Assembly: GCF_900103285.1 (NCBI RefSeq)
Contig: NZ_FNGS01000002.1
Location: forward strand, 350,064 to 414,063
Origin: Siphonobacter aquaeclarae
GTDB taxonomy: Bacteria > Bacteroidota > Bacteroidia > Cytophagales > Spirosomataceae
Reading direction: 5' to 3'
Length of the DNA: 64,000 nt
Of this stretch, positions 767 through 38,903 are shown one piece after another. A model generated the notes under the pieces. The model saw nothing but the letters and a program-made list of their open reading frames with translations. It was not told the DNA's origin and did no database searches. The translations under genes were made by a program, and so were the position numbers. Each line of letters starts with the position of its first letter. Within the stretch, counting starts at the first letter, position 1.

Positions 767-2350
767 TTACAAAACTTCAGTGGATTTCCGGTCTTCGAGT
801 TTACGCCGGCTAACGTGCTTGAATTCAACAGACACTTCCCGTTCGGGCGCATTTTCCTTGAATTCTTTCATGAGCTGAAACACATCGTAGTCGATAAACT
901 GCGCGCGGCTGCCGTCAAAGATAACCATGTCGCCCGCTTCAATTTCACTCAGGACCTGTTTGATTTTTGGTTTATTGAGGAATGATACGTCTTTGTTGAA
1001 TTTAATGAGAACGCGATTTTCATCCCGGACGACCGTGAGCACGGAGTGAAAATTGGTATACAGGACAAAAGCCAGTCCCACGAATGTCCCGATGAAAATC
1101 CCCATCAGCAGGTCAGTAAAGACAACCAGCAGGATCGTCACCAGAAACGGAATGAACTGATCCACTCCCTCTTTCCACTGTTTGATGAAGTGGGAAGGAT
1201 TGGCCAGTTTCCATCCAACGATGATCAGTACCGCCGCCAGCGACGACAGCGGAATGCGGTTGAGCAGTCCCGGCAACGCAAATACAGCTACACACAGCAG
1301 CAAACCGTGAACAAAAGCAGACATCCGCGAACGCGCTCCGGAATATACGTTGGCAGAGGTGCGCACCACTACCGACGTGATCGGTAACCCGCCGATCATT
1401 CCCGAAACCAGGTTGCCAACTCCCTGAGCGACCAATTCCTTATTAGGAGACGAAATACGCTTGTACGGATCGATTGCGTCCGAGGCTTCGAGGTTCAGCA
1501 GGGTTTCCAGACTGGCCACAATCGCGATGGTACCGGCGGTCACCCATACCTGCGGATTGGTGATGAAACTGAAATCCGGGAAAATAAGAATGCTTAACAG
1601 GCCCTCGCCTTCTTTGGCGATCGGTACGTTGACCATGTGGGTCGGAAGGTTTCCGAGGAAGAGCGACGGGAAAGCTGCTTTGAACCATTCATTCAGTCCT
1701 ACTCCCAGCAATACTGCGGCGAGAGATGAGGGAAAAGCCTTGAAGAAGCCAATTCCTTTTTTGGCGAGTTTATCCCAGAAAACGAGGAGAACAATAGCCA
1801 ACACACTGATAATCAAAGCACCTTCATGAAACGATACCACCGACTTGATCAGCTCGGTAATGGTATTTTCGTGGTCGTTCTGAAGAAACTCGAACTCCCC
1901 TTCCGCATCCTGGTCGTCGCCCAGGGCGTGCGGTATCTGTTTGAGGATGATGACAATTCCGATGGCAACCAGCATACCCCGGATCACACTTTCCGGGAAG
2001 TATGCGCTGAGACGGCCGGCTTTCAACGCACCCAGCAACACCTGCAAAGCACCGGCGAGTATTACCGCCACGAGGAAACCTTCGAACGACTCCAGTTTGG
2101 TAATCGCGGCGGCGACAATCACCGTCAATCCGGCGGCGGGGCCACTCACTGAAATCTCCGAACCGGAGAGTAGTGAAACCAGTACGCCGGCCACTATTCC
2201 GGCTACCAACCCTGAAAAAAGAGGGGCTCCCGATGCCAGCGCAATCCCGAGGCAGAGCGGAAGTGCGACAAGAAAGACCGAAAGACCTGATTTCCAGTCG
2301 CTTTCAATTAGAGAGCGCCTGTAGTATGACCAATTCTCGCTGAGTTTCAT
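767..2350 (-). CDS. SulP family inorganic anion transporter with STAS domain
   Basis: A 527-residue inner-membrane protein with 10 or more hydrophobic segments in the first 420 residues, followed by a C-terminal STAS-like domain (about 440-520, containing DMVIFDGSRAQFIDYDV). The N-terminal stretch with LPLCLGIALASGAPLFSGL is typical of SulP carriers. SulP proteins exchange or co-transport sulfate, bicarbonate or related anions. The carbonic anhydrase gene directly downstream points to bicarbonate or CO2 handling, as in known SulP-carbonic anhydrase pairs. The substrate cannot be read from the sequence. Confidence 0.92.
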   Translation of the reverse strand: MKLSENWSYYRRSLIESDWKSGLSVFLVALPLCLGIALASGAPLFSGLVAGIVAGVLVSLLSGSEISVSGPAAGLTVIVAAAITKLESFEGFLVAVILAGALQVLLGALKAGRLSAYFPESVIRGMLVAIGIVIILKQIPHALGDDQDAEGEFEFLQNDHENTITELIKSVVSFHEGALIISVLAIVLLVFWDKLAKKGIGFFKAFPSSLAAVLLGVGLNEWFKAAFPSLFLGNLPTHMVNVPIAKEGEGLLSILIFPDFSFITNPQVWVTAGTIAIVASLETLLNLEASDAIDPYKRISSPNKELVAQGVGNLVSGMIGGLPITSVVVRTSANVYSGARSRMSAFVHGLLLCVAVFALPGLLNRIPLSSLAAVLIIVGWKLANPSHFIKQWKEGVDQFIPFLVTILLVVFTDLLMGIFIGTFVGLAFVLYTNFHSVLTVVRDENRVLIKFNKDVSFLNKPKIKQVLSEIEAGDMVIFDGSRAQFIDYDVFQLMKEFKENAPEREVSVEFKHVSRRKLEDRKSTEVL

Positions 2351-26434: not shown

Positions 26435-26439
26435 TAAAA

Positions 26440-26840
26440 AGCAAGCCGTCTTATCGCTGCCTGTGCAAACAGGGAGAGGAAAGTCCGGGCAGCATAGAGC
26501 ACCGTGCTACCTAACGGGTAGGCGGTCGTCTGGTGACGGGCGGCCGACAGCCAGTACCACAGAAAATATACCGCCCGGAGGAGCCTGCTCCGCCGGGTAA
26601 GGGTGAAAAGGTAGGGTAAGAGCCTACCGCCTGTCAGGCGACTGACAGGGCAGGGCAAACCTCACGGGCTGAAAGACCAAATAAACCGGCGGTTTCCGCA
26701 AGGAACGAAGGGCTGCTCGCCCGGTGCCGGTGGGTAGGTCGTTAGAGACGGCAGGTGACTGCCGTTCTGGATAAATGATAAGACCGCGACTTTCCTTCGG
26801 GAGTCATCGCGGACAGAACCCGGCTTACAGGCTTGCTTTT
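26440..26840 (+). ncRNA. rnpB: RNase P RNA, bacterial type A
   Basis: The catalytic RNA that trims tRNA 5' ends. The conserved core is clear: GAGGAAAGTCCGGGC near the 5' end (about 26474), the CR IV/V region AGAGACGGCAGG near 26745, and GGACAGAACCCGGCTTACAG near the 3' end. The ends (AAGCAAGCCGTC and GGCTTGCTTTT) pair to form P1, which sets the boundaries to within a few bases. A promoter box precedes it. The 3' end runs into a T-rich stretch that may terminate it, 38 bp before the next gene. Confidence 0.95.
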
Positions 26841-26877
26841 TCTTTTTCTTTCGAAAGAAATTCCTTCGACGTCTACT

Positions 26878-36438: not shown

Positions 36439-36918
36439 TTACCCGACCACAGGCTCTGCAAACGGAACCGGGCGCGAAACGCTTTCTTCGAGTGAGATGA
36501 ACGTCTCGGTCCGCTGAATGCCGCTTACCTTCTGAATTTTGTCGTGCAGTACTTCCCGCAGGTGAGTCGTATCGCGGCAGACGATCTTGGCAAAAATGGA
36601 ATAGATACCGGTTGTATAGTGGATGTTGACGACTTCAGGGATTTCCATCAGCTGCTCGGCAACTTCCGCGTACAACGAGCTTTTATCGAGGTAGATACCA
36701 ATGAAAGCGGCAATGTCCCAGCCCAGGCGCGTGTGATCCACCATCAGGGTCGATCCCTTCACAATGCCCATCTGTTCCATTTTGCGCATCCGGACGTGGA
36801 CAGTACCGCCCGAAACGAAGATCCGCTTGCCGATTTCCGTGTAGGGCATCGTTGCATCCTGCATCAGCAACCCCAGAATTTTCAGGTCAACGTTATCAAT
36901 CTCGTAATTTTTGTCCAT
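36439..36918 (-). CDS. Lrp/AsnC family transcriptional regulator
   Basis: A 159-residue DNA-binding protein. The N-terminal helix-turn-helix (IDNVDLKILGLLMQDATMPY, then EIGKRIFVSGGTVHVRMRKM) is followed by the RAM ligand-binding domain (about 70-145). Proteins of this family sense amino acids and often control their own gene. It lies upstream of sufB on the same strand and divergent from the tRNA-shaped RNA gene. The sufB gene has its own promoter box, so a regulatory link is only possible. Confidence 0.92.
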   Translation of the reverse strand: MDKNYEIDNVDLKILGLLMQDATMPYTEIGKRIFVSGGTVHVRMRKMEQMGIVKGSTLMVDHTRLGWDIAAFIGIYLDKSSLYAEVAEQLMEIPEVVNIHYTTGIYSIFAKIVCRDTTHLREVLHDKIQKVSGIQRTETFISLEESVSRPVPFAEPVVG

Positions 36919-37029
36919 GGATCAACGACGGTTTTTAATATTTAGGCAACGCTACGACAATATTTTTGAAAAAATCATAAATATTTCAAAATTTTCATAC
37001 AAAACTTGCAAAGAGCCTCCACGGTGTTC

Positions 37030-37037
37030 TATTTTTG
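37030..37037 (+). promoter_or_regulatory. -7 promoter box for the tRNA-like RNA
   Basis: TATTTTTG, placing a transcription start near 37043, about 26 nt before the tRNA-like 5' end. Confidence 0.7.
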
Positions 37038-37068
37038 TACCGTCAAAAGCGACAACGCTGATACACAC

Positions 37069-37225
37069 TGTAGGGTGATGAAATTGGCAGCCATGCCCTC
37101 CTGTCTCGGGGGTAAGGACCACGGGAAAAAGTCAGGATAAAGCCGGGTTAGTCCGACTGGGGTTGACCACCAAATTTTGTTCTGTACCTAACCGCCTTGT
37201 GGAGGTTCGAATCCTTCTCCTACAG
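37069..37225 (+). tRNA. tRNA-shaped RNA gene with 88-nt variable region and GTC anticodon position
   Basis: The ends fold as a tRNA: acceptor arms TGTAGGG (37069-37075) and TCCTACA (37218-37224); class II D-arm ATG/CAT with loop AAATTGGCAGC; anticodon stem CCCTC/GGGGG with loop CTGTCTC, putting GTC (37103-37105) at the anticodon; T-arm GGAGG/CCTTC with loop TTCGAAT. Every spacing matches a class II tRNA except the variable region, 37113-37200, which is 88 nt instead of about 10-20. In it AAGG and CCTT close the base, a 7-bp hairpin with one bulge (37130-37137 with 37152-37158) forms, and its loop GGTTAG (37146-37151) can pair with CTAACC (37188-37193) as a pseudoknot. No CCA is encoded. The D-arm resembles tRNA-Leu, the anticodon would read Asp codons. 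It may be an unusual tRNA, a decayed one or another small RNA. Confidence 0.6.
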
Positions 37226-37378
37226 CTCTTTATTTTTCTACTATATTCCATTCATTTACAGGTTTTCCGTTACCGGATTCAATTGTCCGACGGATTTTTT
37301 TTACCCTGTTGTTTGGTATTGGCAAGAAATGGCAGTAGTTTTATTTGGTTTTTAGTTTGTTGATGAAGTGTAATTCTG

Positions 37379-37414
37379 ACACGCGACCTTGCTGAGGTTT
37401 GCGTGTTTTTTTTT
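37379..37414 (+). terminator. Rho-independent terminator
   Basis: ACACGC and GCGTGT arms, with an inner CCTT/AGG pairing, are followed by eight T. It would end a transcript of about 370 nt begun at the promoter before the tRNA-like gene. The stretch 37226-37378 holds no convincing gene. Confidence 0.8.
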
Positions 37415-37422
37415 GGCTTAGC

Positions 37423-37667: not shown

Positions 37668-38903
37668 ATGATTTCAAACTACGCCGTTGTCCTTGGCATT
37701 CTTTGTGCCGTCCTCGGAACTGTCTTTTATGTTTCGTCTTTCCCGTCCCTGAAGAAGTTTTTCAACCTCATTCCTCCGGTACTCCTCTGCTATTTTATTC
37801 CGGGACTGATGACGACCGCCGGTTTATTCGCCGACGATGTGACGGGGGATAATTCCGCGATCTACAAAGTCGTTTCCCAATACTTGTTGCCGGCTACTCT
37901 TGTACTCTTTACCCTCTCCATGGACATCAAAACCCTGCGCAAACTGGGTGTCAGGACGGTATTGATTTTCCTCGCCGGTATCACGGGTGTTGTAGTAGGC
38001 GGCCCGATCGCCGTGTTTATTGTCAAGCAGTTTTCGCCGGCGACGGTCGGAGGTACCGGGCAGGACGAAGTATGGCGCGGACTCGCCACCATCGCCGGGA
38101 GCTGGACCGGCGGCGGCGCCAACCAGGCTGCACTGAAAGAGATTTTCAGGCCGTCCGAAAAGCTCTTTTCCCAGTCTGTTGCCGTGGATATCATCGTCGG
38201 CGAGCTCTGGATGGCTCTGATGATTTACGGCGCCGGCAAGGCCGCGCAGCTCGACAAGCTCTTCAAAGCCGACGCCTCCGCCATCCGCGACGTACAGGTA
38301 AGCCTCGAAACCTACAAGGCGAAAAACGAGCGGATTCCGACGCTGCGGGATCAGCTCATGATCCTGGCGATCGGCTTTGGCATTACCGGCGCGGCGCACC
38401 TGATTGCGGACAACCTCGTCCCCTACCTGCAGCAATTCCCGGCGCTGGAGAAATTCAGCCTGACGTCGAAAGTGTTCTGGATTATTTCCCTCGCGACACT
38501 CGCAGGTATTATCCTCTCCTTCACCCGGTTACGGGAGCTGGAGCATGTCGGCGCTTCCCGCACGGGCAGTGTATTCCTGTACCTGCTCATCGCAACGATC
38601 GGGCTGAAAATGAACCTGCTGGCGATTGCCGACAACCCCGGCCTCTTTGCCGTGGGCCTGATCTGGATCACTATCCACGGGCTTTTTACGCTGGTGGCTG
38701 CAAAATGGCTCAGGGCGCCGTTTTTCTTCACGGCAGTTGGTTCACAAGCCGCTATCGGCGGGCCTGCCTCCGCGCCCGTAGTGGCGGCGGCGTTCCATCC
38801 TTCCCTTGCTCCGGTTGGTGTGCTGCTGGCCATTCTGGGATATGCGATCGGGACGTACTGCGGCTACCTTACCGGTTTGCTGATGCAGTGGGCGTCGCTG
38901 TAA
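37668..38903 (+). CDS. DUF819 family integral membrane protein
   Basis: A 411-residue inner-membrane protein with about ten helices. The stretches PPVLLCYFIPGLMTTAGLF and GSWTGGGANQAALKEIF, and the late VGSQAAIGGPASAPVVAAAF, are typical of DUF819 (YjcL-like) proteins, which resemble sodium-coupled or aspartate-type carriers but have no proven substrate. It is transcribed alone from the box at 37572. Confidence 0.85.
   Translation: MISNYAVVLGILCAVLGTVFYVSSFPSLKKFFNLIPPVLLCYFIPGLMTTAGLFADDVTGDNSAIYKVVSQYLLPATLVLFTLSMDIKTLRKLGVRTVLIFLAGITGVVVGGPIAVFIVKQFSPATVGGTGQDEVWRGLATIAGSWTGGGANQAALKEIFRPSEKLFSQSVAVDIIVGELWMALMIYGAGKAAQLDKLFKADASAIRDVQVSLETYKAKNERIPTLRDQLMILAIGFGITGAAHLIADNLVPYLQQFPALEKFSLTSKVFWIISLATLAGIILSFTRLRELEHVGASRTGSVFLYLLIATIGLKMNLLAIADNPGLFAVGLIWITIHGLFTLVAAKWLRAPFFFTAVGSQAAIGGPASAPVVAAAFHPSLAPVGVLLAILGYAIGTYCGYLTGLLMQWASL

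Follow-up and report, generated by a model that had tools for sequence, protein, structure and literature searches.

A conserved tRNA-like RNA of Bacteroidota and their phages is a probable non-decoding carrier for tRNA-dependent asparagine synthesis

Asparagine synthesis on tRNA-Asn, by a non-discriminating aspartyl-tRNA synthetase (ND-AspRS) and the amidotransferase GatCAB, is described for Deinococcus, Thermus, Staphylococcus aureus and Bdellovibrio in two papers (PMC4206432, PMC6523644), the first of which also lists Bacteroidetes as one of the clades in which some genera combine AsnRS, GlnRS and GatCAB with the lack of an asparagine synthetase. The determinants recognized by E. coli AspRS are given as GUC, G73, G2-C71, C38 and G10 (PMC6523644). 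According to a third paper, amidation of Asp-tRNA-Asn depends on U1-A72, G1-C72 and U20a block amidation of Asp-tRNA-Asp, and G1-C72 is crucial for aspartate identity (PMC9976931). The RNA family described here resembles the ND-AspRS and GatCAB route in that aspartate would be placed on a tRNA and amidated by GatCAB via U1-A72, with AsnRS present and, in only part of the RNA-bearing genomes, no asparagine synthetase over cut-off. However, that route uses a decoding tRNA-Asn and a non-discriminating AspRS, whereas the carrier here would be an RNA of its own, which has an aspartate anticodon and apparently does not decode. The novelty lies in the separate carrier RNA, tRNA-dependent asparagine synthesis itself being known.

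The window (the whole 64,000-nucleotide stretch of Siphonobacter aquaeclarae DNA that was analysed) encodes a member of a conserved RNA family with strong covariation (Table 1). The original prediction of a full tRNA frame with 88 nt between the anticodon arm and T-arm was confirmed by reading and parsing, with an anticodon stem of 5 bp, and the covariance model R1 scored this copy at 165.9 bits (contig positions 387132-387288). Total length varies with the insert, from 108 to 175 nt across 46 distinct full copies (set A1), and an extension with GRUNGACCAC is found in long forms only. The internal loop (GAUAAA versus CUAA) separates the inner arm stem from the helix that follows, and the 5′ strand of the T-stem has 1-2 additional nucleotides in some relatives, interpreted as a bulge. 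Upstream of the RNA, a TTG and TATTTTTG are promoter-like. An earlier claim gave the RNA its own promoter and terminator: counterparts of the TATTTTTG box are present in relatives (TACCTTTG, TAATTTTG), and the terminator, about 190 nt downstream, is part of a second conserved element. A GGTTAG/CTAACC pseudoknot, also proposed earlier, is feasible in the window but was dropped because its GGTTAG partner varies in the genus, reading GGCAAG in its five other genomes; the conserved CTAAC contributes to the covarying inner stem and the internal loop.

Table 1. Positions of the tRNA-like RNA, its parts and associated features (window numbering unless a separate stretch, L, is named).
Feature	Position	Strand	Remarks
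tRNA-like RNA, 157 nt	37069-37225	+	acceptor TGTAGGG/TCCTACA, discriminator G at 37225
Acceptor stem, 7 bp	37069-37075/37218-37224	+	read from sequence and parsed
D-stem, 3 bp	37078-37080/37092-37094	+	parsed
D-loop AAATTGGCAGC, 11 nt	37081-37091	+	single nucleotide separates GG from A, no 20a
Anticodon loop CTGTCTC	37101-37107	+	GTC at 37103-37105; U37, C38
Variable region, 88 nt	37113-37200	+	anticodon stem to T-stem, exactly 88 nt
Variable-region outer stem	37114-37117/37195-37198	+	
Variable-region inner stem	37122-37124/37192-37194	+	
Variable-region internal loop	37125-37130/37188-37191	+	
Variable-region further stem	37131-37137/37180-37187	+	
TGGGGTTGACCACCA motif, long insert forms	37158-37172	+	GAC-GUC loop pairing possible, inferred
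T-arm GGAGG-TTCGAAT-CCTTC	37201-37217	+	T-stem 5 bp
Promoter-like elements	37006-37037	+	TTG 37006-37008, TATTTTTG 37030-37037
AsnC/Lrp-type transcription regulator	36439-36918	-	divergent neighbour of the RNA
Second conserved noncoding element with terminator hairpin	37337-37415	+	25-mer core TTTTTAGTTTGTTGATGAAGTGTAA at 37349-37373
GatB-AspRS fusion, ~1100 aa	L291:2754-6059	-	3′ of gatA
GatB-AspRS fusion, ~1100 aa	L292:2953-6270	+	3′ of gatA
GatB-AspRS fusion, further stretches	L293/L294		

Neither ARAGORN nor Rfam at its thresholds found anything in the window RNA, and no known Rfam family covers the region; searching Rfam up to E 10 returned only three unrelated matches (E 2.9-6). A tRNA finder run on relatives (L001-L050) likewise missed the family RNA and reported only tRNA-Gln genes, in four loci. 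The exceptions that are recognized as tRNA are short phage forms and a 76-nt form in one genome, G047. The single-sequence fold of the window RNA was no better than its shuffles (z = 0.10), which leaves comparison as the basis of the structure. Of 59 genomes, 45 gave the RNA by BLASTN, that of the window among them, and the alignment comprises 49 complete parsed copies (one further copy is cut by a contig end). Standard pairs fill 94.2% of the base-pair cells in this alignment, against 47.2-57.8% with 3′ partners slid, and double-sided changes occur in 25 of 36 pairs, against a mean of 14.0 in shuffles. Covariation extends to the D-stem (ATG/CAT, ACG/CGT, TTG/CAA, GTG/CAC), outer arm stem (GGTG/CACC, GGGG/CCCC, GAGG/CCTC), inner arm stem (CGG/CCG, CAG/CTG, CAA/TTG, TCG/CGA, AAG/CTT) and T-stem, and six of seven acceptor pairs have double, compensated changes in 56 distinct phage copies. 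The outer D-stem pair is a T-T mismatch in 9/46 distinct rows. Conservation and compensatory change in relatives were thus found for the predicted stems, the pseudoknot excepted. Resemblances to a group I intron, a riboswitch and Y-RNA were considered and dropped, with no Rfam match at threshold. No description of such an RNA was found in the open-licence literature (titles and the starts of abstracts; most subscription journals lie outside this search). In L059, the full copy is followed downstream by two incomplete repeats of the RNA's 3′ half (975-1042 and 1293-1360, minus strand). Separately, the window holds a bacterial class A RNase P RNA at 26438-26843 (plus strand, Rfam match).

Identity elements were counted in 91 distinct copies whose selection did not depend on the loop sequence (46 in set A1 and 45 in set A4, without overlap). 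The pattern used to retrieve sets A2 and A3 has GTC and C38 built in, which leaves A1 and A4 as the only sets usable for loop counts; A2 has two sequences in common with A1 and six with A4, and the extension was misparsed in eight phage rows of A3 owing to D-loop inserts. The aspartate-type elements G2-C71, G73, U35, C36 and C38 are each present in 91/91 copies and G34 in 87/91; G10 is present in just 14/91. Amidotransferase-type elements comprise U1-A72, which replaces the G1-C72 of tRNA-Asp throughout (91/91), and a missing 20a (91/91). Phage copies have G2-C71 and G73 in 56/56 cases and U1-A72 in 51/56, with A1-U72 in the other five. Set against the known determinants, these conserved counts describe a tRNA-Asp anticodon half joined to an amidotransferase-type acceptor, a combination that would mark a GatCAB substrate; amidation of the Asp-RNA itself is inferred. 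Loss of G34 in G053, G055, G222 and G047, all with AsnA and/or AsnB over cut-off, fits a relaxed need for the RNA only weakly, because 29/34 RNA-bearing genomes of the class also have AsnA/AsnB. GTC is retained in all extension-bearing rows (32/32 in A1, 15/15 in A4), and the GAC of the insert might kiss the GUC of the loop. This idea is also weak, because most rows without the extension have GTC too (12/14 in A1, 28/30 in A4).

The family has partial likenesses to several described RNAs. Bacterial tRNA-Asp (GUC) shares G34 U35 C36, C38, G73 and G2-C71 with it, whereas U1-A72 in place of G1-C72, the lack of 20a, pyrimidine 37, the 3-bp D-stem and a giant variable region set the family apart. 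The class II tRNA-Leu shares the D-arm sequence and 3-bp D-stem, and is scored by R1 at up to 61 bits, but differs in discriminator, anticodon, identity set and arm structure. The mismatch between a Leu-like D-arm and a GTC (Asp) anticodon, noted in the original prediction, is real and conserved in the family, and its suggestion of something other than an ordinary tRNA is supported by stem covariation, the absence of an Rfam family and the conserved mixed identity. The mismatch probably reflects the pairing of an aspartate-type anticodon with an acceptor of amidotransferase type. Like tmRNA, the family is a tRNA-like RNA that exceeds tRNA size and would be aminoacylated, and the two occur together in some phage arrays (charging being inferred); unlike tmRNA, it has an anticodon arm, and ARAGORN and Rfam found no tmRNA here.

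Relatives span several orders of Bacteroidota, two genomes of another class and 66 viral contigs. The covariance model, run over 296 genomes of the phylum, gave copies of at least 88 bits in 31. The overall tally of 288/296 genomes with a match reflects background, scores of about 60 bits or lower being ordinary class II tRNAs; in nine loci that were inspected, tRNA-Leu lay at the match site in eight and the ninth was the 76-nt form of G047, which scored 68.5 bits. This form (L275 1500-1576, minus strand) has anticodon ATC and no long arm, and its genome has both AsnA and AsnB. Three neighbouring copies each are present in G329 and G337, which belong to another class. A pattern scan of named genomes matched at least 120 stretches, and copies of at least 90 bits were found in 80/80 of those run through the model. 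Titles among these stretches include Spirosoma, Dyadobacter, Cyclobacterium, Algoriphagus, Chitinophaga, Mucilaginibacter, Pedobacter and Saprospiraceae, as well as one Ignavibacteriales MAG and three MAGs titled Flavobacteriales. In viral contigs, 66 stretches match the pattern, and the model confirmed all of them with scores of at least 73.9 bits; one is cut at its end. At least five ARAGORN tRNAs are present in 32/66 viral stretches, short forms of the family RNA (92-95 nt, labelled tRNA-Asp) being counted among them, and ARAGORN found tmRNA in 9/66. Four stretches (L225, L230, L215 and L246) have 19-25 tRNAs, with a separate tRNA-Asp(GTC) and tmRNA alongside the family RNA. No AsnC-like, GatB or AspRS gene was seen near the RNA in the viral stretches, which are 1.3-14.6 kb long and not whole contigs, and neither the RNA nor two phage copies had a BLAST match among annotated phages. 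A hairpin-like D-loop insert just 5′ of the conserved GGCAGA was seen by eye in L236, L215, L263, L271, L259 and other phage stretches.

Co-occurrence was examined in 80 genomes, hand-chosen to span families and RNA states and not random. RNA absence was judged with R1 (25 genomes) or from the 296-genome scan with stricter filters, presence in near relatives by BLAST (the G049 copy is cut by a contig end), and GatCAB presence on GatB alone. GatB was found in 36/36 RNA-bearing and 20/44 RNA-less genomes, and the RNA in 0/24 GatB-less genomes (Fisher p = 7e-10 for 68 genomes of the class, without kinship correction). RNA and GatB vary together within two families that belong to other orders: both are present in G136, G155, G194 and G315 and neither in G060 and G178 of family f22, and both in G065, G091, G182, G206, G307 and G346 and neither in G075 and G171 of family f23. 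GatB occurs without the RNA, and without the fusion described below, in eight genomes of the class (G014, G037, G038, G042, G047, G051, G057 and G099), the 76-nt form of G047 not being counted as the RNA; two of the eight, G014 and G057, also have neither asparagine synthetase over cut-off. The RNA is likewise missing from nine GatB-bearing genomes that belong to other classes. Some genomes may retain GatCAB for Gln-tRNA.

AsnRS is over cut-off in 78/80 genomes (the two exceptions, G063 and G068, belong to other classes) and full length in the genome of the window. AspRS is over cut-off in 30/30 genomes searched; that it charges the RNA is inferred. AsnA was found in 9/80 genomes (eight over cut-off) and 0/29 further family members, and AsnB over cut-off in 63/80 and 11/29, respectively. 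Both are missing over cut-off in the six genomes of the window's genus. Across 32 RNA-bearing genomes of its family, AsnA occurs in 0/32 and AsnB over cut-off in 11/32. Neither synthetase is over cut-off in 21/32, with nothing better than E 6e-16 in 14; some of the 21 have partial or weaker AsnB-like matches, for example fragments of up to 262 bits in G015. GatB-less genomes of the class have AsnA or AsnB over cut-off in 21/23 cases (exceptions G048 and G075). Among the 80 genomes, just 5/34 RNA-bearing genomes of the class lack both synthetases, so that elsewhere most genomes with the RNA also have an AsnB-family gene.

Three members of the window's family (G019, G024 and G025) have no RNA match above the tRNA-Leu background of R1 and retain the 25-mer that normally lies 3′ of the RNA. 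In G024 and G025, gatA is followed by a gatB::aspS gene of about 1100 codons and then the 25-mer. The fusion gene encodes GatB and a complete bacterial-type AspRS with a GAD domain, and a separate AspRS is also present in both genomes. In G019, one contig breaks off in the fusion, with a gatA-like ORF beside it, and a second contig starts with the end of the fusion, then the 25-mer; this second part has one in-frame stop near its start, and the copy may be broken or misassembled. The gatA-like ORF of G019 and a gatC-like ORF before gatA in G024 and G025 were identified by eye. The anticodon-domain motif is RDHG in 3/3 fused AspRS, and H occurs at this position in 0/28 housekeeping AspRS (30 loci, two of which gave no reading); the position separates discriminating from non-discriminating AspRS, H being the non-discriminating state. 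The fusion is a candidate one-piece transamidosome. Like the RNA, it has the 25-mer behind it and would couple aspartylation to amidation; unlike the RNA, it is a protein solution, with a non-discriminating-like AspRS and no special RNA detected. No special RNA would be needed if a GatB-bound AspRS charged tRNA-Asn, and gatB::aspS appears, by comparison of these loci, to be a natural replacement of the RNA in three relatives.

The divergent neighbour of the RNA has its best NCBIfam match to AsnC (NF008384, 162.3 bits, below the cut-off of 227). A divergent AsnC-like gene lies within 700 nt upstream of the RNA in 109/158 loci and in the other orientation in none, with a median gap of 171 nt and a median identity of 61%. 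No AsnC gene is present in 40/158 loci with at least 1 kb of upstream sequence, and nine more have too little sequence. The 158 loci include some contigs reached twice; merging by identical RNA sequence gives 148, with AsnC in 103, none in 36 and too short a sequence in nine. The largest neighbour cluster of AsnC-less loci (39/40 compared, L087 omitted) contains eight loci, and none of their 14 largest neighbour clusters is asparagine-related by eye. The 25-mer (up to three mismatches) occurs in 37/59 genomes, behind the RNA or, in three, behind gatB::aspS, and the second element may be an sRNA or a 3′ element with a link to asparagine synthesis. Further downstream, a DUF819 membrane protein is encoded at 37668-38903 (plus strand), with homologues in 20 compared loci, two of them from genomes already counted.

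We consider it likely that the RNA is a tRNA that does not decode and is instead dedicated to tRNA-dependent asparagine synthesis, with charging, amidation, release, regulation and the loss of decoding all inferred. Sequence comparison points this way through the structure, identity elements, GatB co-occurrence and regulator linkage, and also through the genus's apparent lack of asparagine synthetases and the GatB-AspRS fusion in three RNA-less relatives. Ordinary AspRS would charge the RNA with aspartate, because it has the aspartate identity set GUC, C38, G73 and G2-C71, and GatCAB would amidate the bound aspartate to asparagine, because the acceptor starts with U1-A72 and the D-loop lacks 20a. 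The RNA may be excluded from the ribosome by its pyrimidine 37, by a position 33 that is free to vary, by its very large variable arm and, where a lineage has one, by a bulge in the T-stem, so that asparagine would not be inserted at aspartate codons. Asparagine would then be freed from the RNA and loaded on normal tRNA-Asn by AsnRS, and the divergent AsnC-type regulator may tune the pathway to asparagine supply. No enzyme was identified that would release asparagine from the RNA, and this best explanation stands without biochemical or expression data. Also counting against it are the loss of G10 and G1-C72, the GatB-bearing genomes that have neither RNA nor fusion, the frequent presence of an AsnB-family gene beside the RNA and the 40 loci with no AsnC gene.

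The complete tRNA frame and elbow, the GUC anticodon, the location in phage tRNA arrays and the tRNA-Asp label that ARAGORN gives to the 92-95-nt forms would also suit a divergent, class II-like tRNA-Asp that decodes GAC/GAU, perhaps inserting asparagine at some aspartate codons. Decoding tRNAs generally need U33 and a purine at position 37. In the 91 copies, position 37 is a pyrimidine in 89 and a purine in two, and U33 is present in 78 and replaced by another base in 13, which argues against decoding, although the inability to decode remains an inference. Twelve of 20 distinct ARAGORN tRNA-Asp in phage stretches read CTGTCAC, in a set that includes short forms of the RNA, and a separate tRNA-Asp(GTC) is present in 8/9 examined phage stretches with at least ten tRNAs (the exception is L219). 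Additional T-stem nucleotides, D-loop hairpins and an 88-nt variable region are also unusual for a decoding tRNA, and we regard this role as improbable. That the sequence is a pseudogene or tRNA-shaped by chance is virtually ruled out: its single-sequence fold is like shuffled sequence and ARAGORN and Rfam miss it, but covariation and conservation across many families and phages refute the idea.

Two other roles would retain charging. A regulatory RNA, an Asp- or Asn-charged tRNA mimic whose charging would signal amino-acid supply and affect the AsnC-type regulator or mRNAs without being the main source of asparagine, would account for the conserved divergent AsnC-type gene, the large structured arm with its conserved internal loop and the adjoining sRNA-like element. 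It seems unlikely given that no AsnC-like gene lies near the RNA in the viral stretches (1.3-14.6 kb, not whole contigs), that the RNA sits with at least five tRNAs in 32/66 of them, and that the GatB requirement and GatB-AspRS fusion favour chemistry; a sensor that additionally requires asparagine formation is not excluded. The identity elements fit equally well a carrier that passes aspartate or asparagine to a non-ribosomal acceptor, as in cell wall or lipid aminoacylation, and non-translational uses of aminoacyl-tRNA exist, for example that of staphylococcal tRNA-Gly. However, no transferase gene was seen by eye in the largest 14 neighbour clusters of two comparisons, the AsnA/AsnB-less genus and AsnC linkage fit free asparagine better, and phage carriage is hard to account for, making such a carrier very improbable.

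A dedicated asparagine-synthesis tRNA thus remains the preferred reading. A broader form of it, a class of purely biosynthetic tRNAs that lost decoding but retain the tRNA shape and the recognition marks of two enzymes, and yield free asparagine via discriminating AspRS and GatCAB, with a conserved internal loop in the long arm that would release or meter asparagine and an RNA that large phages would carry as an auxiliary metabolic gene, is held tentatively, at a little under even chances. Phage carriage might serve asparagine supply or substitute for host RNA lost in infection, both of which are guesses. The family adds an RNA that was not found here by Rfam 15 or ARAGORN. If the proposed role is true, it would explain the origin of asparagine in AsnRS-bearing, synthetase-less Bacteroidota without a non-discriminating AspRS, as well as their retention of GatCAB, and would represent a tRNA whose role shifted in evolution from decoding to metabolism; its presence in viral contigs suggests a phage metabolic gene consisting of RNA.
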